64,000 bases of DNA from assembly GCF_026278245.1 (NCBI RefSeq), contig NZ_CP111080.1:9842-73841 (forward strand), in the 5' to 3' direction. The DNA is from Pontibacter kalidii (GTDB lineage Bacteria; Bacteroidota; Bacteroidia; Cytophagales; Hymenobacteraceae). Both the position numbers and the translations under genes were made by a program. The notes beneath the pieces are model-generated. The model did not search any database and was not told the DNA's origin. It was given only the letters and a program-made list of their open reading frames with translations. Positions 1 through 18,210 of the stretch are shown here, one piece after another (position 1 is the first letter of the stretch; every line of letters begins with the position of its first letter).

Positions 1-9
1 ACAGAGATT

Positions 10-303: not shown

Positions 304-306
304 GCC

Positions 307-609: not shown

Positions 610-657
610 GAGCCTGGCCCTGGCAGCACAACTTTAACGTCATCACTTTTCTCAGCC

Positions 658-3748: not shown

Positions 3749-3763
3749 ATTATCTCTATTGCT

Positions 3764-4387: not shown

Positions 4388-4391
4388 TGCC

Positions 4392-5387
4392 ATGCGTGAA
4401 TTGATCGATAAAGCCATATTTGACCTGTTCGACGGGCTCTTTCTCAATATACAGGATTTGGTGAGTGTTTTCTTGTATGATGCGCAGGCGCTTTGCGCCA
4501 TCAGCATGCTGCTGTACTTCGGCCTGGAGGCATACAAAATGATGGCCGGGGATGAAACGCTTCGCATCATGCCTTTGCTGCGCCCTTTCGCCCTGACACT
4601 GGTGATTGTTTTCTGGCCAGGGTTTATTGACGCTGTGAACCTGCCGCTGCAGCTAGTCAATGATCAGGCAAAGGGCATGTACGGCGCACAGGTAGACCAG
4701 GTGGAGGATTTGCACCGGGAACGCCTCGCGCTGGTGGACTCTGTGGCCCGAAAGCTCTCTGAGAGCAGCGCCGAGTTTGAGCGGATTGAGAGTGAGGCGA
4801 GTGACGCGAGCTGGTACGAGACCATGGGAATTGACCTGCAGCCCCTGTTTAACAAAATGAAAGGCTATTACCTGATGCTGATGGCCAAGCTGCACTTTAC
4901 GGCGATGATGGTGGTGGAGTGGATTGTGATCAGCATCTTTCAGGTATGCTCTTACATTATCTATTTCCTGCAGATCATCTTTGCAGGCATTCTGGTGATC
5001 CTGGGTCCCTTCTCCTTTGCCCTTAGCGTGCTGCCGGGCTTTCGGGACTCTTACCTGACCTGGATTGCCCGCTATATCTCCGTAGGGCTGTACTCGGGGC
5101 TGGGCTATATCATTATGTCCATCTCCTTTGTGCTGGTCAAGTATGGCTTGATGAAGGAAATAGATATCCTGAAGGCAGTACTGGGCAACGAAGAGATGTT
5201 CATTGCCTACGTTTCCTTTCCCTCGGGCGGCATCAGCTTCTACATCGTCTCCTTGATTGTGGGAGGATTGGCCATGCTGACCATTCCCATTATTTCCACC
5301 TGGATCGTGCACACCACGGGTGTGGGTAATGCCATTGGTACAATGGCAGGAGGAGCTGCGAAGGCGGCCGGAGGAATTTTAAAATAA
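4392..5387 (+). CDS. traJ: Polytopic channel protein TraJ (VirB6-like)
   Basis: A 331-residue integral membrane protein with several hydrophobic segments: near residues 28-50, 60-80, 165-215, 225-255 and 285-310. It has no cleavable signal. Size, topology and operon position match TraJ of Bacteroidota conjugative elements, the VirB6-like inner-membrane channel subunit of the type IV secretion system. The C-terminal Gly/Ala-rich tail after the last helix is usual in this family. The ATG at 4392 follows the preceding stop by 4 bases, and traK begins 17 bases downstream. Confidence 0.88.
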   Translation: MRELIDKAIFDLFDGLFLNIQDLVSVFLYDAQALCAISMLLYFGLEAYKMMAGDETLRIMPLLRPFALTLVIVFWPGFIDAVNLPLQLVNDQAKGMYGAQVDQVEDLHRERLALVDSVARKLSESSAEFERIESEASDASWYETMGIDLQPLFNKMKGYYLMLMAKLHFTAMMVVEWIVISIFQVCSYIIYFLQIIFAGILVILGPFSFALSVLPGFRDSYLTWIARYISVGLYSGLGYIIMSISFVLVKYGLMKEIDILKAVLGNEEMFIAYVSFPSGGISFYIVSLIVGGLAMLTIPIISTWIVHTTGVGNAIGTMAGGAAKAAGGILK

Positions 5388-5404
5388 ACTAAAAAGCGCT
5401 TGCT

Positions 5405-6013
5405 ATGATAAACAACCTCGAAAAGAAAATGAAGCTGGCATTTGCCGTGAGTATCGGCAGCTTTATCTCCTCCATCATTATAGTAGGCACGGTTTGCGCC
5501 TTTGCCTTTCGTTATGCCGAGGAGCAGCGGAAGAAGATTTATGTGATCGACCACTCGGTGCCGCTGCTGGTGGAGCAGACCGAGCTGGGGGTAAACCGGA
5601 CGGTAGAGTACAAGTCGCACGTGAACATGTTTCACCTGCTCTTCTTCACGCTACCTCCAGATGACGCCTACATGAAAAATAACATCTCCAAGGCCATGTA
5701 CCTGGTGGATGAATCCGGTCTGGCACAATACAACAACTTGAAGGAGAAGGGCTATTATAACCAGATCCTGGCAAGCTCTGCGGTTTTGACGATCAAAACC
5801 GATAGCGTTAAAGTGGACGAAAACAGGCACTTTACCTACTACGCCACACAGCGCATTGAGCGGGAGACCTCTGTGATGAAAAGACTTCTTGTCACGGAGG
5901 GGGATCTTGAGGAAGTGCCACGCACAGAGAACAACCCCCATGGACTTTTGATAAAGAACTGGAAAACGGTCCTAAACAAGGACTTGGAGTATGTCGAAAA
6001 GAAATCCTTTTAG
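5405..6013 (+). CDS. traK: Conjugative transfer protein TraK (VirB8-like)
   Basis: A 202-residue protein with a single N-terminal membrane anchor (about residues 11-35) and a periplasmic domain. The segments NMFHLLFFTLPPDD and NWKTVLNKDLEYVEKKSF are recognisable TraK features. The bitopic architecture is like VirB8, a scaffold protein of the inner-membrane complex. Length matches the family (about 205 residues). The last 23 bases overlap the next gene, which points to translational coupling within the tra operon. Confidence 0.9.
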   Translation: MINNLEKKMKLAFAVSIGSFISSIIIVGTVCAFAFRYAEEQRKKIYVIDHSVPLLVEQTELGVNRTVEYKSHVNMFHLLFFTLPPDDAYMKNNISKAMYLVDESGLAQYNNLKEKGYYNQILASSAVLTIKTDSVKVDENRHFTYYATQRIERETSVMKRLLVTEGDLEEVPRTENNPHGLLIKNWKTVLNKDLEYVEKKSF

Positions 6014-6377
6014 CAACAACACAAAGCAAAAGCTTTCATCCCTCAAGGAAAGTGTCAGGGACTACTGTGCCTCGAATCCTAAAGCAGTAGTGCTGGCCAT
6101 GCTGGTTTTACTTTCTGTGGCTGTCATAGGGTTGCTCATCGTCCGGCACCTGCACCAGGGGACCTATGCCGTGTCGGCTGGCAAGCTGTACAGGCAGCTT
6201 GATACTTCTGGCGACAAGATGACTATAGGCAGGTCAAGTACCGCAGATATGCTGGAGCTGATAAAGCTCTACAACACGGCCAGGCAGCTAAATCCTGACA
6301 GTCTGCGTGCCCAAGACAGTGTTTTTCTCAAAGCTATTGATCAGCGTTTAAACCGAATCATCCATGAAGCGAATTAA
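5991..6377 (+). CDS. Small bitopic tra protein in the TraL position
   Basis: A 128-residue protein with a basic cytoplasmic N-terminus, one membrane helix around residues 34-52 and a soluble periplasmic tail. It overlaps traK by 23 bases and traM by 14 bases, so its expression must be coupled to both. In CTnDOT-like operons the short traL gene lies between traK and traM, so the position is equivalent. I cannot confirm sequence similarity to TraL and leave the symbol empty. It is likely a minor component of the inner-membrane complex. Confidence 0.75.
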   Translation: MSKRNPFSNNTKQKLSSLKESVRDYCASNPKAVVLAMLVLLSVAVIGLLIVRHLHQGTYAVSAGKLYRQLDTSGDKMTIGRSSTADMLELIKLYNTARQLNPDSLRAQDSVFLKAIDQRLNRIIHEAN

Positions 6378-7545
6378 CTTTCGGCATCCCAGGTATGCCA
6401 TCCCGCTCATCATACTGCCTTTCCTTGTCCTGCTTAATTACCTGTGGCTGGACATGACACCGGCGGCCACCGCCGCACAAACGAAAGTGGAACTCACCGA
6501 GACAACAGCCCTTAATACCTCCCTTCCGGATGCCAATCTGAGAAAGCGGGACATGAAGGATAAGTTCTCGGCTTTTCAGGACGAGTTTAAGTATAGGACC
6601 GATTACTCGGCCATGCAGGAAATCGGGGAGGATAGGGTAGACCCCAGGGACATTGCCTATGGCAGCGTGTACACGGAGGAGGAGCGGCGGATGCTCGACA
6701 GTCTCAATAACCGCATCCTATCGGATCAGCAGCCGGAGAGGTTTATGGAGCGGGTAAGCCAGCGTCAGCGCCTCAGCTCAGAGCGCTATGCATCGGCGAC
6801 TGCCTCTGTGCCTGGACGGTCAACCCGCCCTATGCGAAAAGTTGAATCGGAATACGAAAAGGAAATGCGGCTGTTCCGGGAGCAGATGATGTTTATTGAC
6901 AGCCTGAGCCGGGTAGGAGAGGAGCCTGTGCCTTCACGTAGGGGCCCACAGCCGACGAAAGCCCATGCACCGGCTTTCGAGAAGCAAGAGCCGACACCGT
7001 TACCCGTAACCAAATACAGAAATACGAACAAAGCCTTTTTCAACACCATTACAGCCGACGGTGAGGAGCAGTTTATCAGAGCTATCCTGGACGAAGGGTT
7101 GAAGGTGATGCAAGGCGGCAGGATCAGGATTCGCTTGCTGGACGACATCTATGTGCGGGACTACGAAATAAAGAAAGGCAGCTACCTCTACGGCACGGTC
7201 TCCGGTTTCAGTGCCCAACGAATTGAGATAGCCATCCGCTCTATACTCTACGGCAACCAAATCATCCCGGTAGACCTGAGTATCTACGACAACGACGGCT
7301 TGGCTGGGCTGTATGTCCCGGATTCACAGTTCCGGGACTTTACAAAAGAGCTTGCCGGGAATGTGAGCAGTGGTCAGTCATTTACTTTTGAGGATTCACC
7401 TGACAATGCCAGCCAAATGCTTTACTCGATGCTGGAAAGGGTTTCTCAGACCACTACCCGCGCCGCAGGCAAAGCCATCCGGAAGAACAAAGCTAAGTTG
7501 AAGTACAACACCATTGTTTATTTGATAGATAACAAAGCCCTGTAA
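6364..7545 (+). CDS. traM: Conjugative transfer protein TraM (VirB10-like)
   Basis: A 393-residue protein with one N-terminal membrane helix (residues 11-30), a long charged and low-complexity linker (about 40-215), and a conserved C-terminal domain from about 220 containing ILDEGLKVMQGGRIRIRLLDD, GSYLYGTVSGF and NQIIPVDLSIYDNDGLAG. This order matches the TraM family, which bridges the inner and outer membranes as VirB10 does. Length is within the family range. It overlaps the upstream gene by 14 bases, and traN follows after 1 base. Confidence 0.92.
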   Translation: MKRINFRHPRYAIPLIILPFLVLLNYLWLDMTPAATAAQTKVELTETTALNTSLPDANLRKRDMKDKFSAFQDEFKYRTDYSAMQEIGEDRVDPRDIAYGSVYTEEERRMLDSLNNRILSDQQPERFMERVSQRQRLSSERYASATASVPGRSTRPMRKVESEYEKEMRLFREQMMFIDSLSRVGEEPVPSRRGPQPTKAHAPAFEKQEPTPLPVTKYRNTNKAFFNTITADGEEQFIRAILDEGLKVMQGGRIRIRLLDDIYVRDYEIKKGSYLYGTVSGFSAQRIEIAIRSILYGNQIIPVDLSIYDNDGLAGLYVPDSQFRDFTKELAGNVSSGQSFTFEDSPDNASQMLYSMLERVSQTTTRAAGKAIRKNKAKLKYNTIVYLIDNKAL

Positions 7546-7546
7546 T

Positions 7547-8335
7547 ATGAAAAAGCTATTCCTTCTATATGTGTTGTTTGCCCTGCTGTTTTCAGCCTCG
7601 GCACAGGATTCTCTTCAGGTAGTGCACGTGCATGAAAGCATCTCCACACATATTGTAAGCCCTGAGCCAATACAGTATGTAGATATCTCCACAGATGATG
7701 TAGCCGGGGACATACCTGTTGCCAATATCCTTCGGGTCAAACCCAAGCATGACGGAGCAAAACCGGGTATTATCACCATCGTTGGAGAGCGCTTCCTTGT
7801 ACAGTATAAGCTGGCCTACAGCCGGGCGGATCGGGCAGACACGGAGGTGCGTATAGACCCTACCCAGGTAGATGATTACCTGAACCCGGCTGTGGCCATG
7901 AGCCGGGAAGACATGGCGCGGTTTGCGCTGCTGGCTCTCCAGCGAAAACCCCAGTTCAACGGTGTGACTACGAAAGGGCAGGGGATGCAGGCAAGGCTGA
8001 ACAACATCTATACGGTGGGGGACTATTTCTTTATTGATCTCTCCCTCAGGAATGATACCAACATTCCTTATACAATCGATCAAATACGATTTAAGATAGA
8101 GGATAAAAAAGTTGTGAAGGCCACTAACTTTCAGCAGGTGGAGCTACAGCCCAGTTTCCAGCTTTATGACACGGGTCACTTCAAGCGCCAGTACCGGAAC
8201 GTGTTTGTGTTCAGGAAATTTACTTTCCCAGAGGAAAAGGTATTCAATATTGAGGTGGCCGAGGAGCAGATTTCTGGGCGCACCATCTCCCTTAAAATTG
8301 ACTATTCCGACATCCTTCATGCAGACACCTTATGA
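7547..8335 (+). CDS. traN: Conjugative transfer protein TraN (DUF4138, VirB9-like)
   Basis: A 262-residue exported protein with a signal peptide (MKKLFLLYVLFALLFSASAQ) and a beta-rich mature domain. Motifs such as THIVSPEPIQYVDIS near the N-terminus, a central ARLNNIYTVGDYFFIDLSLRN and a C-terminal immunoglobulin-like segment are typical of TraN. This is the VirB9-like outer-membrane-proximal component that works with TraM. traN and traO share the ATGA overlap at 8332-8335, a sign of coupled translation. Confidence 0.9.
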   Translation: MKKLFLLYVLFALLFSASAQDSLQVVHVHESISTHIVSPEPIQYVDISTDDVAGDIPVANILRVKPKHDGAKPGIITIVGERFLVQYKLAYSRADRADTEVRIDPTQVDDYLNPAVAMSREDMARFALLALQRKPQFNGVTTKGQGMQARLNNIYTVGDYFFIDLSLRNDTNIPYTIDQIRFKIEDKKVVKATNFQQVELQPSFQLYDTGHFKRQYRNVFVFRKFTFPEEKVFNIEVAEEQISGRTISLKIDYSDILHADTL

Positions 8336-8790
8336 GAAAGTCATTACTCCTTTTCTTACTGCTCTTAGTTGTGCTGCCGTGCCGAGCGCAAGAGGGCTAC
8401 ACCCACCTGAACCTGGCAGGCGGCTGGATGTACAAGGATGCCTTAACTGCTAACCTTGCCCTGGAGTTCAGCAAACGCCACTATAATTCCTATGAGATCT
8501 TCGGTGATGCCTATAAGAGCAACGTGGATGACAGCAAAAACTGGTTAGTGGGGGTTGCTTACAAACCCATGCTTACCCGATCCAGAAACACGTTTCTCAA
8601 GCTGCGCCTGGGAGCGGGCATTGGCTCTAACACCGAGCACTTCATAGGAGCCCTGCAGGCAGGCCTGGAGCTGGGCTATGTGCTGCCGGGAAATTTGGTG
8701 CTGATGCTCCAACAGAAAAACGAGGGTGTACTCCGGGTAAACCATAACTTCAGAGCTGGTTTGCTGGCGGGCATCAAAATTCCATTGTGA
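8332..8790 (+). CDS. traO: Conjugative transfer protein TraO
   Basis: A 152-residue protein with a signal peptide (about residues 1-19) followed by alternating beta-strand sequence, consistent with a small outer-membrane-associated barrel. Operon position immediately after traN with an ATGA overlap, signal sequence and the terminal HNFRAGLLAGIKIPL strand fit the TraO family of Bacteroidota conjugative transposons. It is somewhat shorter than typical TraO proteins. A 104-base gap follows before the coupling protein gene, which might contain a separate promoter, although I see no convincing one. Confidence 0.8.
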   Translation: MRKSLLLFLLLLVVLPCRAQEGYTHLNLAGGWMYKDALTANLALEFSKRHYNSYEIFGDAYKSNVDDSKNWLVGVAYKPMLTRSRNTFLKLRLGAGIGSNTEHFIGALQAGLELGYVLPGNLVLMLQQKNEGVLRVNHNFRAGLLAGIKIPL

Positions 8791-8894
8791 GCAGGATTTG
8801 GCTAGTCGACGGGAATTTCCACAGGAAAGAAATTCTGCTAAGACTTTCCCTCACATCTATCTGATAATATTGGATAACCTTTGTCAGTAACGAT

Positions 8895-10862
8895 ATGGAA
8901 GAATCCAGCGAAATCAAAAAACTTTACTCCTTCCTGCAGGGGCTTATCTACTTCACAATTGTGGTAGAGGTAGCTGTTTTCCTCTTTATGGATTCGGGCA
9001 GTATGTATGAGCTGCAGCCTGTACTGCGCAAGGTAAAGCGCATGGCTATTTATGAGCACATCTACTTCTCCAAAGCTTTTACTTTCGGGTTGATTCTGAT
9101 CGTGAGCATTGGCACAAAGGCCAGGAAGAACCTGAACCTTGACCCGCTCTGGCATATCTTCCTTCCCTTGCTCATCGGCTGCGCCTTTTTCTTTGGCTCG
9201 GGTTTCTTTTATTTCTTTGAAAGCAGCCGTATTCTTTTCTGGGATGTGTCCCTGTCTGATGCGGCTTACATCCTGCTCTCCTTCTTAGGTGCGATGATGA
9301 TTCATATAGCCTTGGATAATATCTCCAAGCATATACAGCACCGATTGATGAAGGACAAATTTAACGTGGAGAATGAGTCCTTTGAGCAGTCCAGGAAACC
9401 GGTGCATACGCCTTACTCGGTGAATATCCCAATGCTTTACTATTACCAAAAGCGAATACAGCGCGGGTGGCTTAATGTGGTAAATCCCTTTCGGGCAACA
9501 CTGCTGATCGGTACGCCTGGCTCTGGAAAGTCTTTCTCGGTGGTGTTGCCTTTTATCAAGCAGCTTCTGGGGAAAGGCTTCTCTATGATGGTCTACGATT
9601 TCAAGTTTCCAGACCTGGCCAGAACGACTTATTACCATTATCTGGTCAATAAAAAGAGAGGGGCATTGAAAAACCACAGGTTCCATGTCATCAACTTTAA
9701 CAGTGTAGAGCACAGCAGGAGGTTTAATCCTTTAAAGCCGGAGTACCTGCCTACCCTGGCTGATGCCACCGAAACGGCTGAGGCGCTGCTGGAGGCGCTG
9801 CGGAAAGGAGACAGGGACTCAGGGACTGCACAATTCTTCAACCAGTCAGCCGTTAATTTCCTAGCCAGCTGCATCTACTTTCTGAGCCGCCACGAAGGGG
9901 GGCGGTATTCTTCGTTTCCGCATGTACTTTCCTTCATCAACCTTAGCTATGATCAGATTTTCGAGGTGCTCTTTTCCGAACCTGAGCTGGAGAGTCTGCT
10001 TTCGCCTTTTGCCACAGCCTATAAGAACAGAGCCTTTGAGCAGCTGGAAGGGCAGATTGGCACCTTAAAGATTAATATTGGCCGGCTGGCCACAAAAGAA
10101 ACATTCTGGGTACTATCAGGAGACGACTTTAATTTAAAGATAACGGACCCGGAAAACCCTTCTGTTTTGGTGATTGCAAATGACCCGGCCACACAGAGCA
10201 TTAACAGCGCCTGCAACGCGCTTATCCTCAATCGCATGACACGCCTGATCAATACAAAGGGGAACTTGCCATGTGGGCTGATCGTGGATGAGTCTCCTAC
10301 GCTTTACATACACCGGGTGGAGAACCTGATCGCTACTGCAAGGAGCAACAAGATAGCTGTGCTGCTGGGCCTGCAGGAACTTCCGCAGCTGCGGCAGCAG
10401 TATGGCAGGGAAACAGCCGACACCATTTGCTCTGTAGCGGCCAATGTACTCTCGGGCTCTGCTCGTAATAAAGAAACGCTTGACTGGCTGGAAAAACTGT
10501 TTGGTAGGGTGAGGCAGCTAAAGGAGGGGCTTAGTGTGGACCGTAACCGTACCTCCGTCAACATGAACGAGGAAATGGGGCCGCTCATTCCGGCATCCAA
10601 AATAGCCAATTTGCAGGCGGGTGAGCTGGTAGGACAGGTGGCTTCCGATAGCGAAGAGTATAGCGGGAAGTATGTTGCCAGTACCTACCACTGTAAAATT
10701 AATCTCGACCTTGATAACATACAACAGGAAGAAAAGCAGTATCTTGACCTGCCAAAATTTTATAACTTTGGTACCCCCGACCAAAAAGACCAAATCCTGA
10801 GAGCAAACTACAATAAAGTTAGAAATGAGGTTAAGACACTAATCACAGCGTTACAGGTATGA
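8895..10862 (+). CDS. mobC: Type IV coupling protein (VirD4/TraG type, MobC)
   Basis: A 655-residue coupling protein that brings the relaxase-DNA complex to the secretion channel. The N-terminus carries four membrane helices (about residues 15-36, 53-70, 84-106, 115-135). The cytoplasmic ATPase domain has Walker A GTPGSGKS at 206-213 and Walker B GLIVDE at 461-466, followed by the TARSNKIAVLLGLQELPQL segment of VirD4-like proteins. Bacteroidota annotations call this protein MobC. No relaxase gene lies in the visible neighbourhood, so mobA/mobB are probably outside the window. The xre gene overlaps its stop codon (ATGA). Confidence 0.92.
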   Translation: MEESSEIKKLYSFLQGLIYFTIVVEVAVFLFMDSGSMYELQPVLRKVKRMAIYEHIYFSKAFTFGLILIVSIGTKARKNLNLDPLWHIFLPLLIGCAFFFGSGFFYFFESSRILFWDVSLSDAAYILLSFLGAMMIHIALDNISKHIQHRLMKDKFNVENESFEQSRKPVHTPYSVNIPMLYYYQKRIQRGWLNVVNPFRATLLIGTPGSGKSFSVVLPFIKQLLGKGFSMMVYDFKFPDLARTTYYHYLVNKKRGALKNHRFHVINFNSVEHSRRFNPLKPEYLPTLADATETAEALLEALRKGDRDSGTAQFFNQSAVNFLASCIYFLSRHEGGRYSSFPHVLSFINLSYDQIFEVLFSEPELESLLSPFATAYKNRAFEQLEGQIGTLKINIGRLATKETFWVLSGDDFNLKITDPENPSVLVIANDPATQSINSACNALILNRMTRLINTKGNLPCGLIVDESPTLYIHRVENLIATARSNKIAVLLGLQELPQLRQQYGRETADTICSVAANVLSGSARNKETLDWLEKLFGRVRQLKEGLSVDRNRTSVNMNEEMGPLIPASKIANLQAGELVGQVASDSEEYSGKYVASTYHCKINLDLDNIQQEEKQYLDLPKFYNFGTPDQKDQILRANYNKVRNEVKTLITALQV

Positions 10863-11209
10863 GCGTGAGCATACAGGAGTTAGGCCAAAGGCTAAAGCTG
10901 CTGCGAAAGCGGCTTGATTTATCGCAGGAGAGCCTGGCAGAGTCCATGGGGGTGAACCAGAACCAGATATCCCGGCTGGAGAACGGGGTGGGAGGGACGA
11001 TCGAACTGCTTTTACTTCTGTTCAGCTTCTACAGCAAGCACTTTCACGTGGACCTTCTTTTTTCCGACAACTTTGACATCCTGGAAAAGCACGAGAAGCT
11101 ATCCAACAGCCACAGCATCAACAGCATTGCTGTTGAAAAGCTGAAGCTGGCTCAAAGTGAGTTTTCCACGCAGATTGAGGAGGTGATACGTTTGCTTGAT
11201 ACCCCTTAA
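10859..11209 (+). CDS. XRE-family helix-turn-helix regulator
   Basis: A 116-residue protein with an N-terminal XRE/Cro helix-turn-helix at about residues 6-60, containing RLKLLRKRLDLSQESLAESMG and NQNQISRLENG. The C-terminal part is helical and probably dimerises. It starts within the coupling-protein stop (ATGA) and so is co-transcribed with transfer genes; control of transfer is a reasonable inference. Its stop codon (11207-11209) lies inside the outer core of the last attC-like site, so the cassette array abuts this gene tail to tail. Confidence 0.85.
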   Translation: MSVSIQELGQRLKLLRKRLDLSQESLAESMGVNQNQISRLENGVGGTIELLLLLFSFYSKHFHVDLLFSDNFDILEKHEKLSNSHSINSIAVEKLKLAQSEFSTQIEEVIRLLDTP

Positions 11210-11268
11210 CGTGTTAGTACAGGCTGCGAGCGAGGCGCAGCCGAGTATAGAGCCTGTGCAGTGTTAGC
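11206..11268 (-). repeat. attC-like site of the sixth (last) cassette
   Basis: Imperfect palindrome 3' of the 11289-11825 gene. Inner arms ACAGGCT (11219-11225) and AGCCTGT (11251-11257) pair, and the intervening segment contains a second GGCTGC/GCAGCC pair. The outer blocks are GTTAGC (11263-11268; sense GCTAAC) and CTTAAC (11205-11210; sense GTTAAG). The sense outer block TTGCTAAC is complementary over 8 bases to the start of the same cassette at 11855-11862. The xre stop codon overlaps the outer core. Confidence 0.85.
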
Positions 11269-11288
11269 AAGAGATATTCTTTGGTATT

Positions 11289-11825
11289 CTACAGTTTCCC
11301 ATCAAACCTGCCTTCGGTAACTTTAATAACTTCACATCCAGTCTTGGACAGTGTAAATGAGAACTTCCCTGCGATGATACCATTTTCTAAATCAAGTTTA
11401 GTAACTTCAAGTGTGCCGCTGCGGGATACTTCAGGACTCTTGTCGTAATCGCAGTATTCGTTATAGAAGCTTACTCCGCTTATCTCAGCATTATCAAATG
11501 TATAAACTCCTGCTTTATCAACTTGAGCCATAGCTATAACAAGATAATCGTACTCTGCAGGACTTTCTTTGGTTTCCCTGTAGGCTGCTATATTTAAAGT
11601 GCCACCTTTATAAGCAGGGTCGTAAATAACATTAAAATTTGACTGGAACGTACTGGGTCTGCCCTTTGGCAACCACACCTTTCCGTTCACCATAGCACCG
11701 AAAGTGTTCTTGCCTTCCATAGTATCTGCTGGAAGTTCTTCTCTGGGATTAGCGTCTTTCTTTTTACAGGATGAAAAGGAGATAAGGACTATTAGGATAA
11801 AGAGGGATAGAGTTAGTGTTTTCAT
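11289..11825 (-). CDS. Cassette gene: lipoprotein of DUF6252-like type
   Basis: A 178-residue lipoprotein. The N-terminus has a signal peptide with lipobox ending FSSC followed by lysines. The mature part includes FGAMVNGKVWLP, TLNIAAYRE and a C-terminal GIIAGKFSFTL...GRFDGKL pattern. This layout is common in Bacteroidota lipoproteins resembling DUF6252, whose function is unknown. It is the last of six minus-strand cassettes (unit 11210-11861), with a 32-base leader after the upstream attC-like core and no evident promoter of its own. Confidence 0.8.
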   Translation of the reverse strand: MKTLTLSLFILIVLISFSSCKKKDANPREELPADTMEGKNTFGAMVNGKVWLPKGRPSTFQSNFNVIYDPAYKGGTLNIAAYRETKESPAEYDYLVIAMAQVDKAGVYTFDNAEISGVSFYNEYCDYDKSPEVSRSGTLEVTKLDLENGIIAGKFSFTLSKTGCEVIKVTEGRFDGKL

Positions 11826-11856
11826 ATTTTAGGGTTTTCTGATGATTTTATTCTTT

Positions 11857-11908
11857 GCTAACGTACTGGCCTATAATGTGGCGAAGCTAAATTATAGGCG
11901 TGGTTAGC
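11857..11908 (-). repeat. attC-like site of the fifth cassette
   Basis: A 52-base site with perfect outer arms GCTAAC (11857-11862) and GTTAGC (11903-11908) and perfect 8-base inner arms CCTATAAT (11870-11877) and ATTATAGG (11891-11898). The spacers are asymmetric (7 and 4 bases) and the central loop reads GTGGCGAAGCTAA. Asymmetric spacers around two nested inverted repeats are the arrangement of integron attC sites. On the sense strand the outer block TTTGGCTAAC complements 10 bases at the start of its own cassette (12625-12634). Confidence 0.9.
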
Positions 11909-11918
11909 CAAATGTGTT

Positions 11919-12608
11919 TTATCTTGAACCGTAGTTCCTCATTTCAAGAGAGTCCAGACAATCAAAGTCAGGCCACGCAATATGAGATTCGGCTTTTACT
12001 AAGAAGAATTGCCTGCCTTCTTTAAAAAGAAGAGATTCTATTCTAAGACCGTCCTCGAGTATCACATTCTCATATACAATACTTTCTTCAAACTTGCTCT
12101 CCGCTTTGTTGAATACGCTTGCCTTACCCAACAGCAGTAGATCGCTGACGATCCACCTGTAACTTTCATTTGCTTTTACATTTGGCTCTGAAATTTTAGA
12201 AACTGGCGCATAGCCATAAGGCTCTATAAACTGCCTTTTGTATTCTTTATAGTATCTCCGCCCCATATCCTTGTGATAGTCTGGAGCAGGAAGATGTTCT
12301 ATATTAAATAGATCGGCATTTCCTTCTATTGTTCGTATTTGCTTGTTCAGTTTACTGAGGTCATTCTTTTTCTCTTGGCATAAGTCCTTGTCGGAAAGGT
12401 TCTCGACAATATAAGATTGTAAAACTGAAAGAGGAATAAAGATCAACGCCTTGCTGTTTTCATAGATAAACTGGTTGGCAGTGGTATCAATCTGCAACAG
12501 ACGAATCGGCTTCTTGTCTGCGAGCTGAGAATAGTCGCCTTGACTACTGTCTGTTGCTTTACAGGACACCAGTATAAAAACTACCAGAATGAAAACAGTT
12601 CTTATCAT
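11919..12608 (-). CDS. Cassette gene: hypothetical lipoprotein
   Basis: A 229-residue protein with a short lipoprotein signal (MIRTVFILVVFILVSC). The mature region shows IRLLQIDTTANQFIY near residue 40 and a C-terminal half with alternating hydrophobic strands. I do not recognise a family. It forms the fifth cassette (unit 11862-12633), reads away from the recombinase, and has only a 20-base leader after the upstream attC-like core. The lack of room for a promoter suggests transcription from upstream. A role in the envelope is inferred only from the lipobox. Confidence 0.75.
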   Translation of the reverse strand: MIRTVFILVVFILVSCKATDSSQGDYSQLADKKPIRLLQIDTTANQFIYENSKALIFIPLSVLQSYIVENLSDKDLCQEKKNDLSKLNKQIRTIEGNADLFNIEHLPAPDYHKDMGRRYYKEYKRQFIEPYGYAPVSKISEPNVKANESYRWIVSDLLLLGKASVFNKAESKFEESIVYENVILEDGLRIESLLFKEGRQFFLVKAESHIAWPDFDCLDSLEMRNYGSR

Positions 12609-12628
12609 TTTCTATGGTTTCACTTTTG

Positions 12629-12693
12629 GCTAACGTGCTGGTATAGCAGATTGCAAGGCGTAGCCGCAGCAGTACTGCTATACTTTGTTGTAT
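12629..12693 (-). repeat. attC-like site of the fourth cassette
   Basis: A 65-base palindrome. Inner arms GTATAGCAG (12641-12649) and CTGCTATAC (12675-12683) pair perfectly over 9 bases. Outer blocks are GCTAAC (12629-12634) and GTTGTAT (12687-12693). The two outer blocks do not match one another well, as expected if one belongs to each neighbouring cassette. The GTTGTATGGT block (12687-12696) is an exact complement of ACCATACAAC at 14775-14784, the other end of the same cassette beyond the inserted IS. Confidence 0.9.
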
Positions 12694-12698
12694 GGTTG

Positions 12699-13136
12699 TT
12701 ATTCTTCAGTTTCTGCCGAATCGTATCTATAAATATCTACATCAGTAGCAGTCTGCGTCTGATAAAGAAATTCTATAGTTTTTAAGTCATGTCCTAAAGC
12801 AGGCGTTGACTCTTCTGGATTGACATCAATGTACATCACAATTTCAAGTACAGAAGTCAGCTGGTATTTTTCTTTTAGCTTATTGATGAGTCCAACTTTG
12901 TCTTTCAGTTTCTCTACCAATTCATCTACAAGGTTGTCTATGAATATGGCTTCTTTTCCTTTTCCAGTTGACCACTTCCAACAGGCATATTTCTGATTAG
13001 CAATGTACTGCCCTTTGTCTCCCTTTTTCCAAGAGTCTGTTGGTTCTATTCCAAGTGCTCTGGTGACTTCATTTGGTTCAAAGTCATCACCATGAAGAGC
13101 AAAATAGACGTAGGATTTTGAGAGAGTGTTATTCAT
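12699..13136 (-). CDS. Cassette gene: DUF4279 protein
   Basis: A 145-residue cytoplasmic protein resembling DUF4279, a family of unknown function that is frequent in mobile and cassette-like contexts. Typical features are the N-terminal SKSYVYFALHGDDFEPNEVT, the TDSWKKGD segment, a WKWST motif and a C-terminal LEIVMYIDVNPEESTPALG. It is the only ORF of the fourth cassette, which is split by an IS110-family element inserted in its 5' leader 17 to 22 bases upstream of the ATG. Expression from an upstream cassette promoter may therefore now depend on the IS. Confidence 0.85.
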   Translation of the reverse strand: MNNTLSKSYVYFALHGDDFEPNEVTRALGIEPTDSWKKGDKGQYIANQKYACWKWSTGKGKEAIFIDNLVDELVEKLKDKVGLINKLKEKYQLTSVLEIVMYIDVNPEESTPALGHDLKTIEFLYQTQTATDVDIYRYDSAETEE

Positions 13137-13164
13137 GCTTTTAATCCTGACTAACGTTTATTTC

Positions 13165-14520
13165 TCAGGCCGTTGCAAAGCCCAGTTCTTCAGGCTTGAG
13201 GTCTAATTTAGCGATGTTTTTCTTTATCCGCTGCACCAGCTTGAGCTTTCTCTTCTCGTCGAGGAACAGGTATTGCGTGGGCGGGTTGTAGGGCACGCGG
13301 TAAGTGAGCATGTGCCAGATGATCACCGCCAGCTTGCGGGCCGTGGCGCTCACGGCCGCCTGCCTGCCCTTGCGGAAGGCCACTCTTTTAAAGAAGTCCG
13401 ACAGGTGCGTCTCACGCAGGTTGCCGATGACATTGGCCGCGTTCCGCAGGGCGATTTTCAACCGGTTGCTGCCCTTGGGAATGTGGGAGCTGAGCACCCT
13501 GCCCCCGCTCACCTTCGTGTTGGGGCAGAGCTTGAGCCAGTTGGTGAACTGCTTGGCCGTGGGAAACTTGCGGATGCCTTCGGCACCCACCTCGCTCATC
13601 AGCGCCATCACCGTCGCATGGCTCACCCCCTCGATTCGGAGCAGGTCCACCCCACCGTAGTACTGGTAGGCCAACTGGTTGAGATCCATCTGCTGCGGGG
13701 CATTCTTGTTGACCCGCTTGTAGGGTTTAGGGTCTGTTCTCAGCTCCCGCCTCTCTTTATCTGCTCCAATCTGCTCTCTAAGCAGCTGCTCGATGGCCGC
13801 GTCACAAGCCGCAATCTTATCCTGCAGCATCTTGTACATATCCAGCTCCTGGGCAAGGGTAAAGAGCAGCTCACGGCGGCCGTTGCCGCGCAGGGCCAGG
13901 GCGATTTCTTCTTTCGATTTTCGGCAGTTGCCATGCCGGAAGCAGGCCAGCTTTTCGGGATTGGTTTCCCCCTGGCAAACGGCCTCGATGATGGCCATGC
14001 CCGTCTGGCCGGTGATGTCGCGCACGACCACGTCGAGCCGCAGGTTCAGCAGGCGCAGGTACTTCTGCATCTTCTGGGTAGTGACGGCGGCCGTCTCCAG
14101 CAGCGAGGCGCGGTGGCGGCAGTAGGTCCTGAGCTCCTCGGTGGCCTGGTCAGGCAAAAAGCTGCCCGAGAGCAGCCCCAGCGCGTGCAGGCGCTGAATC
14201 CACTGGCAGTCCTGCACGTCGGTTTTGCGCCCCTTGATGTTCTTGGTGAACTTGCCGTTGCAGAGCAATACCTCCAGGCCTGCCTGCTGCAGGGCCGTGA
14301 ACAGGCTCTGCCAGTAAGTACCCGTGCTCTCCATGGCCACGGTGGAGATGTGGCAGGAAAGGAGCCACTGGGTAAGTTCCCGCACCTCGTCCTCATAAAC
14401 GCCGAACTCCCGCACCTGATCCGCTCCCTGGCCCACAGCCACAAAGTGCGAGCGGCTGCCCACGTCGATGCCGGCAGCATGTTGGTTGACAATCTCCATA
14501 GGCGTGTTTCTCTTTTTCAT
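13165..14520 (-). CDS. IS110-family transposase
   Basis: A 451-residue recombinase with both hallmarks of the IS110 family. The N-terminal DEDD RuvC-like domain shows GIDVGSRSHFVAV (Asp19), VAMESTGTYW (Glu about 65) and KGRKTDVQDCQW (two Asp near 101-104). The C-terminal Transposase_20 domain shows LLRIEGVSHATVMALMSEVG and the catalytic serine region GGRVLSSHIPKGSNRLKIAL. These enzymes use an element-encoded bridge RNA to choose target and donor sequences. The gene is full length and appears intact. A 420-residue reading frame on the opposite strand is a GC-bias shadow. Confidence 0.95.
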   Translation of the reverse strand: MKKRNTPMEIVNQHAAGIDVGSRSHFVAVGQGADQVREFGVYEDEVRELTQWLLSCHISTVAMESTGTYWQSLFTALQQAGLEVLLCNGKFTKNIKGRKTDVQDCQWIQRLHALGLLSGSFLPDQATEELRTYCRHRASLLETAAVTTQKMQKYLRLLNLRLDVVVRDITGQTGMAIIEAVCQGETNPEKLACFRHGNCRKSKEEIALALRGNGRRELLFTLAQELDMYKMLQDKIAACDAAIEQLLREQIGADKERRELRTDPKPYKRVNKNAPQQMDLNQLAYQYYGGVDLLRIEGVSHATVMALMSEVGAEGIRKFPTAKQFTNWLKLCPNTKVSGGRVLSSHIPKGSNRLKIALRNAANVIGNLRETHLSDFFKRVAFRKGRQAAVSATARKLAVIIWHMLTYRVPYNPPTQYLFLDEKRKLKLVQRIKKNIAKLDLKPEELGFATA

Positions 14521-14540
14521 AGTGGTAAAGAATAAAGTGA

Positions 14541-14734
14541 AAAACGATCCCAGGGGAATGTACGCTAGGTCTTGAAAGTATCCTGATCGGGGTCTCCCGA
14601 GGGAGCCGCCACTGAAATCACCTCAAAGCCCTCCTCAGTAGAAGGGCTCTCTACATTCCAACCAGAATGCCACCCGAGCTTTAAAGCGTCAATTAGAAAC
14701 CGGTCTTGCAAGGGATACAAAATAGATACGCAGC
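14541..14734 (-). ncRNA. Candidate bridge RNA of the IS110 element
   Basis: Non-coding end 5' of the transposase. GGAATGTA (14555-14562) pairs with TACATTCC (14652-14659) and encloses two hairpins: GG-T-CTCC/GGAGCC around loop CGAG (14591-14607) and AGCCCT/AGGGCT (14627-14632 with 14643-14648). A multi-branched structured RNA in this place is expected for IS110-group bridge RNAs. The structure is seen in the sequence; the function is inferred, and the loops that would pair with target and donor were not assigned. Confidence 0.55.
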
Positions 14735-14777
14735 AACGTTAGCGGGAGAAATCAATAGTTAATATGGGGGGAATACC

Positions 14778-14841
14778 ATACAACGGACGGGTGCATGCGG
14801 AGCCTGAAGCGTAGCGAAGGTTGAGCATGCATTGTGTTGGC
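14778..14841 (-). repeat. attC-like site of the third cassette
   Basis: A 64-base palindrome with inner arms TGCATGC (14792-14798) and GCATGCA (14825-14831). Outer blocks are ATACAAC (14778-14784; start of the fourth cassette) and GTTGGC (14836-14841). The sense block ATGTGCCAAC from 14836-14845 has the same sequence as 15193-15202 on the plus strand, i.e. a 10-base complement between the two ends of the third cassette. Confidence 0.9.
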
Positions 14842-14854
14842 ACATGTTTTTCTT

Positions 14855-15142
14855 TTATTTCTCCACCCAAGCTCCAGCCAAATCTTCATACTCCCATTCT
14901 GCCTGGTCTATTGCGTCATCTATAGTTTCATGCCATGTATCGGTTACAGATTCCCAACTTGAATCACAACCGAACAGGTAAAATCCTTCTTCATTATCAT
15001 ATTTACAGATAGCAAGTCCAACAGTGGGGTTTACTGTTTTTCCGATATGGATGTGTACAGTTTTTCCCGTAGCCCTTCTTCCTTCTACAGAAGCATAAAG
15101 TATAACCTTTGCTCCACCAACTATGTCTGGTGCTTCTTTCAT
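14855..15142 (-). CDS. Cassette gene: small hypothetical protein
   Basis: A 95-residue acidic, soluble protein without signal or membrane segment. It contains GGAKVILYASVEGRRATGKTVHIHIG, then a pattern with YLFGCDSSWE and WHETIDDAIDQAEWEYEDLAGAW near the C-terminus. Small proteins with this ending are common in bacteria as uncharacterised orphans, but I assign no function. It is the sole ORF of the third cassette (unit 14784-15201) and has a 54-base leader between the attC-like core and the ATG. Confidence 0.75.
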   Translation of the reverse strand: MKEAPDIVGGAKVILYASVEGRRATGKTVHIHIGKTVNPTVGLAICKYDNEEGFYLFGCDSSWESVTDTWHETIDDAIDQAEWEYEDLAGAWVEK

Positions 15143-15196
15143 CGCTTTAGTTATTCGTATTGGTTACTTGGATAGCATTCATAACTTGAAATATGT

Positions 15197-15261
15197 GCCA
15201 ACGGTCTCGTACAGGCAATGGGTGCGGCATCAGCCGAACATGGTGCCTGTGCTTTGTTACC
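15197..15261 (-). repeat. attC-like site of the second cassette
   Basis: A 65-base palindrome with inner arms ACAGGCA (15211-15217) and TGCCTGT (15244-15250). Outer blocks are GCCAAC (15197-15202, start of the third cassette) and GTTACC (15256-15261). GTTACCTG at 15256-15263 is complementary to CAGGTAAC at 15601-15608, the other end of the second cassette. Confidence 0.88.
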
Positions 15262-15308
15262 TGATTGAGTTTTTCTTTTTCTTGTTGTTCAAGATGAAAC
15301 GAAGAATT

Positions 15309-15584
15309 TTAAGAGAAGAAATATTCAGTCATTTCGTCTATAAATTCCTTATCCGTAAGAGGCAAGCCAGATTTAGAACCCAAAACGGAATCTATGTTGC
15401 ACTTTGGGCAAACAGCTGTCACTCTACCATCACTTTCTTCAAACCATTCCTTTATTTCATTAGGACTAAAAGTATTTTGACAGTAGAAGCATACACACAT
15501 TTCACTGGCAAGTACTTCTACTTTATGAGAATGACAATGATTATGTGCCTTTAATAAGAAGTCTATACTATACTTCATCGTCAT
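15309..15584 (-). CDS. Cassette gene: small zinc-binding cytoplasmic protein
   Basis: A 91-residue protein with two cysteine pairs, CFYC at about residues 32-35 and CPKC at about 59-62, so it probably binds one zinc ion. The C-terminal SKSGLPLTDKEFIDEMTEYFF and the central FSPNEIKEW are typical of a small family that databases label only as cytoplasmic protein. A second in-frame ATG two codons downstream (15578) is an equally good start. It is the only gene of the second cassette (unit 15202-15607), with a very short leader after the attC-like core. Function unknown. Confidence 0.8.
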   Translation of the reverse strand: MTMKYSIDFLLKAHNHCHSHKVEVLASEMCVCFYCQNTFSPNEIKEWFEESDGRVTAVCPKCNIDSVLGSKSGLPLTDKEFIDEMTEYFFS

Positions 15585-15602
15585 TCATACTTTTCTCTTA
15601 CA

Positions 15603-15654
15603 GGTAACGTACTTGGCTTTGCGGTGGCACAGCTACCGTAAAGGTGTGGTTATG
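15603..15654 (-). repeat. attC-like site of the first cassette
   Basis: A 52-base site. Inner arms CTTTGCGGT (15617-15625) and ACCGTAAAG (15635-15643) pair with one mismatch. Outer blocks are GGTAAC (15603-15608) and GTTATG (15649-15654). GTTATGTA (15649-15656) complements TACATAAC (16118-16125) at the head of the same cassette. The stop codon of the 15650-16105 gene is embedded in the outer block. Confidence 0.87.
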
Positions 15655-16105
15655 TACCGTTATATTTTGAGATAAAATCATTGATAACTTTATCAAACTC
15701 ATCTTTTCTTTCTTTGGGTATATTTTGGTAACCTATCCAATACAGGCCTTTTACTTCTTCTTTTCTCCAATATTTATTTCCTTCACTACCAGTGATAGAA
15801 TTTATTTCATTTCTATTGGGTCCACCAATTATGAATTTTCCAGCCTTTGCAACTTCTTCATAGTTCCATCCAAAGTCTTCAGTAGAAAAATAAAATAAAC
15901 CGTCGTTCTCGTATTTGAACTCATAAGACGTACCATGAGCCTGCGACTCAATTTTGTCTATGTATCCATCTGGTGGATTTAACTTATAAGTGATTCTCTT
16001 ATTTTCCTGTGTCAAATAACCCTTTTTCTTAATTACATATGATTGGCAGGATGTAACAGATATGAGAGCGATAAAACTTAAAAAAGCTATTAAAACCTTT
16101 TTCAT
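15650..16105 (-). CDS. Cassette gene: hypothetical lipoprotein
   Basis: A 151-residue protein with a lipoprotein signal (MKKVLIAFLSFIALISVTSC). The mature part contains YLTQENKRITYKLNPPDGYIDKIE and a C-terminal VKGLYWIGYQNIPKERKDEFDKVI. I do not recognise a family. It is the first cassette gene after the recombinase (unit 15608-16124) and would be the best expressed if transcription begins in the 16106-16268 region. Its stop codon is part of the attC-like outer core. Confidence 0.75.
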   Translation of the reverse strand: MKKVLIAFLSFIALISVTSCQSYVIKKKGYLTQENKRITYKLNPPDGYIDKIESQAHGTSYEFKYENDGLFYFSTEDFGWNYEEVAKAGKFIIGGPNRNEINSITGSEGNKYWRKEEVKGLYWIGYQNIPKERKDEFDKVINDFISKYNGT

Positions 16106-16268
16106 TATTACTTATGATACATAACTATAGTATATACGACAACATACGCTTATCTGCACTATGTACGTAGTAGCTAAACACTGCTTGAGTCCACTTTTGC
16201 TTACTGGATCTGATACTTGTGGCTGTAGTGCGCATGCGTTTATATAGTTAAGCTAATATAGGTGATTG
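16106..16268 (-). other. Candidate attI-like insertion site and array leader
   Basis: 163 bases between the recombinase stop and the first cassette gene. The block TACATAAC (16118-16125; sense GTTATGTA) is the recombination core at the head of the first cassette. Sense-strand sequence upstream of it holds CGTAT twice ten bases apart (around 16136-16150) and an imperfect palindrome around GTAC (near 16158-16172). No nested stem like those of the attC-like sites is present, as expected for an attI-type site. No convincing promoter was found here. Confidence 0.5.
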
Positions 16269-17723
16269 CTAGAGATTATCCAACGGGCTGACAATTTTAT
16301 CCAGCGCATGGGTGGTGATGTGGGTGTAGATCTCGGTGGTCTTGCTGCTCCGATGTCCCAGCAGCACCTGGATATACCTTAAATCCGTTCCTTGCTCTAG
16401 CAGGTGAGTGGCAAAAGAATGGCGCAGGGTATGTGGCGTGGCGGGTGCTTTCACGCCTGCCTTCTCCTTGCTGGCCCGGAACACGCTGCGGATGCTCTCC
16501 ACCGTATATTGCCCGCCCGTCTGCCCCTCAAAGAGCCACACCCTGGGCCTGTACTGCTTGTAATAAGCACGCAGGCTTTCCAGCAGCTTTTGGGAGAGCA
16601 GCGTGGTGCGGTCCTTCTTGCCTTTGCCGCCACGGATCAGCAGCAGGTTGCGCTCCGACTGCACGTCCGTAAGTTTCAGGTTGATCACTTCGCCAATACG
16701 CAGGCCACCCGCATACAAAAGCTGCAGCATGCAGCGGTGCTTGAGGTTCTCGGTCACAGAGAGGATTTTCAGCACGTCCTGCTTGCTGAGCACCTGCGGC
16801 AGCCGCTCGGGCTTCTCGGGCCGCTCCACCTGGCCCAGCTGCACCTCGTGCCGCAGCAGCACGCGCTGGTAGTAGAACTTCACGGCATTGATGGACTGGT
16901 TCACAAACGATACGGAATAGGTGCCGGCCTGCACCATCTGGCGGTGGTAGTGGTTGATGGCCTCTTCCGAGAAAGCATGTATGCCCTCCAGCCCGCTATC
17001 CCTGTGCGCATTCAGAAAGCGCAGTAGCAGGCTGTGGTAGGTGCGGATGGTACTGAGGCTGTAATTGAGCAGGAACAGCTTCTCCACGTAGTGAAGCGGG
17101 CAGGCAATATAGCCGTCGCCCTTCCGGTAACATTGTTCCCAGAGCCGGGCCTGCAGGGCCATGTCCTTCACCTGCATGGTCTGCGCCAGCCACACCTGGG
17201 CTACTCGCTCTACCTCGGTTAGCAGCGTGTGCAGACTGCTGCTTTCGGTGCGGATGACAAAGCACTGCATGTCGTGCAGCCACCTGGCCACTTTGCTTTG
17301 CTTCAGGCAGGTATGGATTTCCTTGTTGTAAAGATAACTGAGCTGTACATACGGTCTGCCCTGGTGTTCCAGGGGCTGCAGGCGCACGACGGGGCGTGCG
17401 GGCACCTTTCCCAATGGCTCTGCCACATGCTTATCTTGTTGCAGGATAACGGTTCCTTCCGCCGGGCGCAGGCGCTTGGGCCGGAACAGGTACCTTGTGT
17501 CCACCTTGGCCAGCCCCTGGAAGTGCTGGTGCGTCATCTCGATGGCCTGGCTGCTGCGGTGCATCACAAAGCACTTGTAGGTCCTGCTGTACTTGATCCA
17601 GCCAGCCTCCTTCAGTCGTTTGGAGAGGAAGGGGTTGGGCTTGTGCCAGATGCGGATAATAGCTTTGCCCGCGTGCTCCAGCGGGTTAAGGTACAAAATA
17701 GGTTTTTGATCGGGATAAGCCAT
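16269..17723 (-). CDS. Atypical tyrosine recombinase, candidate cassette integrase
   Basis: A 484-residue tyrosine recombinase (start at ATG 17723; a TTG 27 bases upstream is unlikely because TACCTTTG at 17748-17755 looks like the -7 box). Residues about 1-200 are an extra N-terminal region, followed by a SAM-like core-binding domain (about 215-300) and the catalytic domain. The catalytic set is complete: Arg342 (GLRIGEV), Lys367, His431 and Arg434 (HTLRH), His457 (LLGH), Tyr466 (IYTH). Lys-to-His spacing is 64 residues, XerC/D-like, so the extra helix insertion of classic IntI is absent. It lies at the head of the cassette array in the same orientation. Confidence 0.88.
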   Translation of the reverse strand: MAYPDQKPILYLNPLEHAGKAIIRIWHKPNPFLSKRLKEAGWIKYSRTYKCFVMHRSSQAIEMTHQHFQGLAKVDTRYLFRPKRLRPAEGTVILQQDKHVAEPLGKVPARPVVRLQPLEHQGRPYVQLSYLYNKEIHTCLKQSKVARWLHDMQCFVIRTESSSLHTLLTEVERVAQVWLAQTMQVKDMALQARLWEQCYRKGDGYIACPLHYVEKLFLLNYSLSTIRTYHSLLLRFLNAHRDSGLEGIHAFSEEAINHYHRQMVQAGTYSVSFVNQSINAVKFYYQRVLLRHEVQLGQVERPEKPERLPQVLSKQDVLKILSVTENLKHRCMLQLLYAGGLRIGEVINLKLTDVQSERNLLLIRGGKGKKDRTTLLSQKLLESLRAYYKQYRPRVWLFEGQTGGQYTVESIRSVFRASKEKAGVKAPATPHTLRHSFATHLLEQGTDLRYIQVLLGHRSSKTTEIYTHITTHALDKIVSPLDNL

Positions 17724-17747
17724 GGCAAATGAGACAGTTACTGAAGG

Positions 17748-17755
17748 CAAAGGTA
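17748..17755 (-). promoter_or_regulatory. Putative -7 box of the recombinase gene
   Basis: On the minus strand the sequence is TACCTTTG, a full match to the Bacteroidota -7 consensus TAnnTTTG, 25 bases before the ATG at 17723. No clear -33 box is found at the usual distance, so the promoter may need an activator. The adjacent repeats at 17785-17825 would be well placed for that. Confidence 0.4.
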
Positions 17756-17829: not shown

Positions 17830-18210
17830 ATGAGCCAAGCCAGAACATGCATCCAGTGCGGAACAGCCATTGTAGGCAGGAGCGATAAGCGCTACTGCTC
17901 TGACCCCTGCAGACACCTGGCCAACAATATGGTCAAGGTACAGAACCAACACGAACGCAGGATTCTCCAAATCAATGCTGCATTAAGAAAGAACCGCAGC
18001 ATTCTCAAACAGCTCAGTCCGCAGGGTAAGACCACCCTGCCCCGCCAGTACCTGGAGCTGGCAGGCTTTGATTTCCGCTACCTGACCCAGGTCTACCGCA
18101 CCCAGAAGGGAAACACCTACTATCTCTGCTATGACTATGGGTATATGCTCCTGCCTGAGGAGAAGGTATTGATCGTGAATTGGCAGCCCTACATGGATGT
18201 GGGTCGGTGA
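17830..18210 (+). CDS. Small Zn-ribbon protein
   Basis: A 126-residue protein with an N-terminal zinc ribbon, CIQCGTAIVGRSDKRYCSDPC (Cys pairs at about 7-10 and 24-28), followed by a basic helical region (residues 30-65) and a hydrophobic C-terminal domain. Proteins with this RYCSDPCRHLANN segment are common in Bacteroidota mobile elements; a nucleic-acid binding role is likely but unproven. It is divergent from the recombinase with three direct repeats in between and might be co-regulated with it. Confidence 0.75.
   Translation: MSQARTCIQCGTAIVGRSDKRYCSDPCRHLANNMVKVQNQHERRILQINAALRKNRSILKQLSPQGKTTLPRQYLELAGFDFRYLTQVYRTQKGNTYYLCYDYGYMLLPEEKVLIVNWQPYMDVGR

Follow-up and report, generated by a model that had tools for sequence, protein, structure and literature searches.

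A cassette array of integron type beside a tyrosine recombinase outside the IntI family in Pontibacter kalidii

Helix I2 of the integron integrase IntI is reported to occur in no other protein, and is tied to the recombination of cassettes as single strands (PMC7790495, in the sections available). In the Bacteroidetes proper IntegronFinder 2.0 found one complete integron, that of Salinibacter ruber M1, an earlier survey having given In0 only (PMC9024848, as excerpted). We have analyzed a 64-kb stretch of DNA from Pontibacter kalidii, henceforth the window, in which the gene of a 493-amino-acid tyrosine recombinase that stands outside IntI is followed by six short genes on the same (minus) strand, with a palindrome behind each. 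We conclude that the locus is very probably an integron-type cassette array, and that the adjacent recombinase likely captures and excises the cassettes. The anatomy of the array, the boundaries of its units, the point of insertion and natural exchange are evident on comparing sequences, and that this recombinase does the work is our best inference.

The locus has much in common with the classical integron. The cassette sites run from AAC to GTT with a G|TT crossover and folding of the bottom strand, attI lies beside the integrase gene, and one-gene cassettes bounded by attC vary in content between copies of one platform. In contrast to the classical integron, the integrase lies outside IntI, lacks the extra domain and carries HARP-like repeats at its N-terminus, the attI-like site is preceded by a dyad, and there are chromosomal attI docks that have no recombinase. 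In archaeal integrons attI is directly downstream of intI, and the IntI of Spirochaetota has the reverse orientation (PMC9668308, in the accessible part). Like clusters of attC sites lacking integron integrases (CALIN) and like attG cassettes, some cassettes here are dispersed away from the integrase. The attG are secondary genomic insertion sites divergent from the classical att sites (PMC12901181, in the portion available), whereas the docks described here have a full attI-like sequence of ~44 nucleotides (nt) in common with the recombinase-linked site. The recombinase is also unlike XerA, XerC and XerD, having N-terminal repeats, a cassette array beside its gene and a separate place in the tree. 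An 'Integron-like' subgroup of tyrosine recombinases includes some members with an insertion that is not fully conserved (Smyshlyaev et al., PMC8138268, in the passages available), and the present family may belong to it. For members of that subgroup without the insertion the same passages describe no cassette arrays (PMC8138268), whereas arrays are present here. Within the open-licence literature, as distinct from subscription papers and preprints, we recognised no report that describes either cassettes with an integrase lacking I2 or arrays of this kind in Pontibacter. Surveys that need a match to IntI would miss the system or call it CALIN.

The sites were defined independently of the window. 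A structure finder applied to 20 related loci collected 80 sites, of which 76, all from other genomes, were aligned to give the covariance model R1; two apparently false sites were omitted, along with two close copies of one from the window. R1 makes exactly six matches in the window at E ≤ 1 (E 1.2e-14 to 6.9e-7), all on the minus strand 3′ of the recombinase between 11208 and 15651, and 46–59 nt in length. A scan of the window against Rfam at the gathering threshold gave no match. A reading made earlier from the letters of the window alone (the sequence-only reading) had noted six one-gene units on the recombinase strand, each with a nested palindrome, and had likened them to integron cassettes with attC sites. 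A model trained elsewhere finds the same six, and the boundaries of the units agree with it; the sites are a little shorter than the 52–65 bases given for the palindromes.

If the units move as circles, complementarity is expected between the end of one site and the start of the next. We therefore compared the bases after the GTT of site n with those before the AAC of site n+1 over six positions, for adjacent pairs less than 2.5 kb apart in which AAC and GTT are intact in both sites. All five adjacent pairs in the window match, at 5, 6, 6, 6 and 5 of 6 positions. Over 20 loci, 124 of 153 pairs match in at least 5 of 6, where 1000 shuffles give 5.2 such pairs on average and 15 at most; the control comparison within single sites reaches this level in 10 of 173. 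On this complementarity between successive units we reject ordinary terminators or repeats. Covariation in the R1 alignment was set aside as proof, because its sites had been chosen by folding.

The sites are also ordered with respect to the recombinase: 173 of 179 are on its strand, without exception on its 3′ side, and the other six are in L047. Among 21 recombinase-bearing sources searched, L056 alone has no site. Calculated with DNA folding parameters, the bottom strand is the more stable at 179 of 181 sites (with one tie and one reverse) by a mean of 2.6 kcal/mol; this includes all six window sites, one by merely 0.2. Stem positions of the training rows have A·C rather than G·T on the top strand by 43 to 10, A·C there being a G·T wobble on the bottom strand. 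The count in 77 rows outside the training set, which are related and so not independent, is 55 to 9. Many draft contigs stop within ~1 kb of the recombinase (for example G121:C23:357, G028:C37:150 and G101:C7:717), an effect to be expected where a cassette array repeats its sites.

The opposite end of the first cassette lies at an attI-like site. Using the left arm of the first site, its start was found in 18 of 19 arrays, 134–146 nt past the recombinase stop codon; in L039 and L040 the arm matches at just 4 of 6 positions, yet at the same place. In the window the coordinates place the start 143 nt past the stop. The sequence leading up to it is conserved and ends in a core of the TA|GTT type, beyond which the sequences diverge. 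A second model, R2, was built from 14 recombinase-linked and 11 chromosomal copies of this attI-like sequence, the window copy not being among them. It matches the window at 16123–16166 on the minus strand (E 1.1e-12), and the first cassette begins at the G|TT of this match.

The genome measures 5.05 Mb in two contigs, and the window is part of the second, of 73,841 bases. Its positions 1–11200 are 95.6% identical to a stretch of a Pontibacter actiniarum plasmid annotated with TraG, TraK, TraM, TraN and a type IV coupling protein. From its size and this match to a tra region the contig is likely a plasmid, and the conjugative backbone around the array fits the connection with a conjugative element drawn in the sequence-only reading. 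The P. actiniarum plasmid (NZ_CP021236.1) has this backbone up to window position 11200 and then diverges; thus the other flank is missing there, and the stretch read contains no match to R1 or R2.

Two other loci allow the exchange of cassettes to be seen directly. L038 (G075) and L039 (G129) encode a recombinase protein identical to that of the window, with flanks of 95.6–97.3% identity to it. The similarity breaks at attI and at GTT|AAGGGG beside a helix-turn-helix (HTH) gene (10859–11209). This far junction (11201–11209, minus strand), which has the sequence TTAAGGGG after the last G|TT and overlaps the HTH stop codon, is identical in L038 and L039. Between the same two junctions the window has six sites, L038 one and L039 two. 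The one cassette of L038 is the counterpart of the last in the window and is the only one they have in common, and the two sites of L039 have other content. Thus the same sites do carry different genes in different strains, as the sequence-only reading had anticipated. A search for a clean empty platform found none.

The recombinase (16269–17750, minus strand) is read from an open reading frame with a TTG start at 17750 and an in-frame ATG at 17723, and matches Phage_integrase at E 1.7e-40. Its catalytic residues are conserved in 65 relatives, and the relatives include Pontibacter, Rufibacter, Nibribacter and Adhaeribacter. On the IntI model TIGR02249 the window protein scores 193.4 bits, short of the cut-off of 265, and model positions 181–240 are unmatched. 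In alignment with VchIntI4 there are 19 query residues between two aligned stretches where VchIntI4 has 59, so that the protein is ~40 residues short at the position of the IntI extra domain. These positions of TIGR02249 and VchIntI4 we take, together with the literature, to be the location of I2. The best NCBIfam model is XerA_Arch, at 200.6 bits below its cut-off of 220; XerD (181.2, cut-off 329.6) and XerC (178.6, cut-off 335.15) likewise fall short. Four of nine distant members do reach the XerA_Arch cut-off. NF040815 bears the NCBI name 'site-specific tyrosine recombinase/integron integrase', and since four of nine distant members reach its cut-off, some records have a name containing 'integron' through automatic annotation.

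In a careful tree of 54 rows, 20 IntI sequences form one clade (100/100) on a long stem that excludes all 29 new recombinases. The five Xer sequences form a separate clade (100/99), and the new rows stand outside both. Whether the new rows are one clade or a grade giving rise to IntI is left undecided by the tree (approximately unbiased test, AU, p 0.386). A quick tree of 56 rows has the same IntI clade; the careful tree omits ICE_L007 and BAC_L138 for their long branches, and both omit L131 and L137, which have stop codons. By these comparisons the recombinase is a lineage separate from IntI, without I2, and the earlier view of the system as distinct from those of classical IntI agrees with both the score and the tree. 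Relatives with 48–49% identity over residues 256–492 occur on Acinetobacter plasmids (H11–H32), one of them annotated as TnpF.

An AlphaFold2 model (mean predicted local distance difference test score, pLDDT, 82; predicted template modelling score, pTM, 0.54) has two N-terminal β-β-α-β-β-α-β repeats ahead of the core-binding domain, followed by the catalytic domain. A fold search with the whole model covered only the catalytic half, and VchIntI4 was among the best structural matches; the core and a C-terminal ending of SPLD type are common to the window recombinase and IntI. The N-terminal part modelled alone has a pLDDT of 37. Its repeats are homologous to those of the distant members (hhalign 97.6%, E 3.6e-12). 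One of these, L222, matches the HARP domain PF07443 at 29.4 bits (gathering score 25), and four of ten distant repeats match that domain at E ≤ 1. A profile search of the PDB with the distant repeats gave weak matches only, with two unrelated chains placed ahead of the SMARCAL1-type chain 4o66 (E 0.053). The HARP domain is familiar from SMARCAL1 and from forked DNA, and this suggests a role in hairpin recognition for the N-terminal repeats.

How might such a recombinase act? We propose that it would join a folded, single-stranded attC to the attI-like site 3′ of its own gene. A cassette would span the TT after one G|TT up to the G of its own attC, so that a free circle would hold one complete site; here the complementarity is observed and the circles are predicted. 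Of the two attC strands, the bottom one is predicted to recombine, since its fold is the more stable and its pairs are kept. Without helix I2, recognition of the hairpin would have to come from another part of the protein, and it seems an even chance that the HARP-like repeats provide it. Judging by the content of the docks, the recombinase of the plasmid would also act in trans on the recombinase-less chromosomal attI docks. Taken as a whole, the idea of a second class of integron, with I2-less recombinases across the Bacteroidota, HARP-like repeats for single-stranded attC hairpins and a network of chromosomal docks, is one for which we hold belief and doubt to be in balance; within it, IntI may have arisen from an I2-less cassette integrase. 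An I2-less cassette integrase would break the link between I2 and single-strand recombination, and would make the origin of integrons directly testable.

The chromosome of P. kalidii provides the docks. At E ≤ 0.1 R1 matches the genome 37 times; 31 matches are chromosomal, either single or in small clusters. The sequence-only reading would have been refuted by palindromes scattered over the genome as ordinary repeats, but 11 of the 13 chromosomal clusters examined begin at an attI-like sequence, and so the chromosomal matches look like docked cassettes. No convincing recombinase remnant was found in the 2.5 kb upstream of those dock clusters. By the same test an attI-like start was not seen at L108 and L118, of which L108 adjoins a recombinase remnant. 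R2 matches 18 places in the genome, and 17 have an R1 site 3′ on the same strand; the exception, L155, is a partial match. Of the 17, the place on the plasmid has the intact recombinase, one on the chromosome has a remnant, and the other 15, also chromosomal, have no piece of a recombinase in the locus. Thus the chromosome has 16 attI-like docks with cassettes, none beside an intact recombinase, and a search of this genome for an empty chromosomal dock found none. The docks suggest that genes at numerous positions on the chromosome could be rearranged by a single enzyme. The chromosome also contains a degenerate version of the recombinase followed by R1 sites (L004, L108 and L156; G000:C1:1308835-1309006), which has the appearance of a decayed second platform.

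Docks are also present in related genomes. All 39 same-genus genomes tested have 1–18 R2 places each, including G058, G083, G099, G105 and G131, which lack the recombinase at 1e-40. One dock, beside a conserved gene, was compared between genomes over 28 of 30 loci (L259 and L268 left out); R2 is clear in L239, L240 and L242, weak and partial in L248, and absent from the other 24. Here three genomes have a common flank and attI-like site followed by inserts without detectable similarity. One of the three, G083, has no recombinase at 1e-40, and its exchange may therefore be an old one or the work of an element since lost. The attI-like site, the signature at cassette boundaries, the recombinase-less docks and the spread over the phylum all go beyond the sequence-only reading.

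How general is the system? We surveyed 200 genomes of the family, calling a recombinase relative at E ≤ 1e-40, attC by R1 and attI by R2; per-genome R1 counts were limited by a strict filter (27 scored). A relative is present in 82 genomes, attC in 77 and attI in 72; every genome with attI also has attC, and the remaining 123 lack both. Given attC in 77 of these 200 genomes from a single family, a substantial reservoir of mobile genes, mostly of unknown function, may have been overlooked. IntI exceeds its cut-off in 2 of the 200, and none does so in the genome of P. kalidii. These two belong to genus g3 (L099 in G029 and L100 in G014), one of the genes having an internal stop codon, and 19.9-kb stretches around them contain no R1 site. 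In genera g4 and g5 a single R1 match is the only site of either kind.

Across the phylum, a relative (E ≤ 1e-42) is found in 94 of 296 sampled genomes and an R1 match in six; thus sites of the distant relatives are of different sequence. We applied a palindrome search that takes no account of site sequence beyond AAC and GTT to 22 loci, 20 from the 94 genomes picked for contig size (two of which, G356 and G395, were already known to have R1 matches elsewhere) together with L056 and L057. It finds 65 sites in 197 kb downstream of the recombinase (3.3 per 10 kb) and five in 82 kb upstream (0.61), with 0.68 per 10 kb in shuffles. Boundaries match in at least 5 of 6 positions in 14 of 24 pairs (shuffled mean 1.4, maximum 6), and 11 of 14 loci with a first site have an attI-like crossover 40–100 nt past the stop codon; L126 has a better match further away. 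A second distant set comprised the best 80 named loci, picked by protein alone. These have 47 sites in 181 kb downstream and two in 237 kb upstream, and 12 of 14 adjacent pairs match at the boundary (shuffled mean 1.2, maximum 7). In this set 55 loci have at least 1 kb downstream, of which 32 have a site and 12 show the crossover. By these measures the integron-like layout is one that recurs across the Bacteroidota. Saccharibacillus kuerlensis (L223), Paenibacillus sp. NFR01 (L228) and a metagenome-assembled genome of Spirochaetota (L222) have the same type of recombinase, attC-like sites and a matching crossover, so that the system is not restricted to that phylum. Other records from outside it, including L192, L224, L230, L231, L233, L234 and L238, have no site by the palindrome finder.

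Several observations weigh against our assignment of the work to this recombinase. The evidence comes from sequences and models throughout, and recombination itself is a prediction. In L047 the six R1 sites lie on the strand opposite the recombinase, the nearest ~6.7 kb beyond it, and this array is possibly inverted or separate; L048 has a single site, at a distance of 4.4 kb. Sixteen g5 genomes have a relative of ~45% identity with no R1 or R2 site but the one R1 match, and, with L056 having no array, not every member need be a cassette integrase. Of the 55 named loci that extend 1 kb or more downstream, 23 have no site by the palindrome finder. Eight same-genus genomes lack the recombinase at 1e-40 and keep attC, five of them with attI docks. 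Adhaeribacter G029 has attC, attI and a classical IntI with no family recombinase at 1e-40, so that another enzyme may serve such sites. Lastly, the N-terminus of the window protein matches no Pfam family at E ≤ 10, and its connection to HARP is indirect.

Sites in genomes without the recombinase, and the two Adhaeribacter-type genomes with IntI over its cut-off, are what might be seen if the array were a CALIN, its cassettes assembled elsewhere or earlier by a classical IntI and the Xer-like recombinase a mere neighbour. Yet attC is far more frequent in the family than IntI (77 against 2 of 200 genomes), sites are enriched 3′ but not 5′ of the distant relatives, and in 18 of 19 arrays the position next to the recombinase at which the first cassette begins is fixed. 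A fixed attI there disfavours an unrelated neighbour, and we regard the CALIN as improbable. The recombinase might instead be an IntI that lost helix I2 secondarily, in a degenerate classical integron. The common core, the SPLD-type ending and the place of VchIntI4 among the best structural matches would agree with this, and the tree leaves unsettled whether IntI branches inside the new group. However, the IntI clade with its long stem excludes every new row, and the arrays appear intact and swap cassettes, making such a loss quite improbable. It is barely credible that the recombinase serves only dimer resolution or integration of the conjugative element, the palindromes being terminators or repeats. 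Although XerA_Arch is the best model, with its cut-off unreached, and 31 of the 37 R1 matches are chromosomal, this is contradicted by the complementarity at unit boundaries, by the exchange of units between fixed junctions and by the docks at 11 of 13 chromosomal clusters.

The cassettes themselves, all on the minus strand, are listed here in order from the recombinase. Cassette 1 (15608–16124) has a gene at 15650–16105 for a protein of 151 amino acids with no confident family, and ends in attC 1 (15606–15651; R1 32.3 bits, E 6.9e-7). Cassette 2 (15202–15607; gene 15309–15584, 91 amino acids) ends in attC 2 (15200–15258; 52.0 bits), and cassette 3 (14784–15201; gene 14855–15142, 95 amino acids) in attC 3 (14782–14838; 51.0 bits). 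Cassette 4 (12634–14783; attC 4, 12632–12689, 51.9 bits) contains a DUF4279 gene at 12699–13136 and is interrupted by an IS110 element with its transposase at 13165–14520, which the sequence-only reading did not mention in its otherwise sound account of one-gene units; across this insertion the boundary matches at 6 of 6 positions. Cassette 5 (11862–12633; gene 11919–12608, 229 amino acids) ends in attC 5 (11860–11905; 43.4 bits). Cassette 6 (11210–11861), the one that recurs in L038, has a gene of the Riean_0653 family at 11289–11825 and ends in attC 6 (11208–11265; 57.7 bits). On the 5′ side of the recombinase there is a small divergent gene on the plus strand (17830–18210), found in the same place in 18 of 20 related loci, which is a possible partner of the recombinase. 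It has a possible zinc-binding start, and a remnant of it is also present at L156, the degenerate recombinase copy on the chromosome. The Rufibacter tibetensis plasmid NZ_CP012644.1 likewise has an IS110 transposase close to its cassette array (L158:16268-17326).

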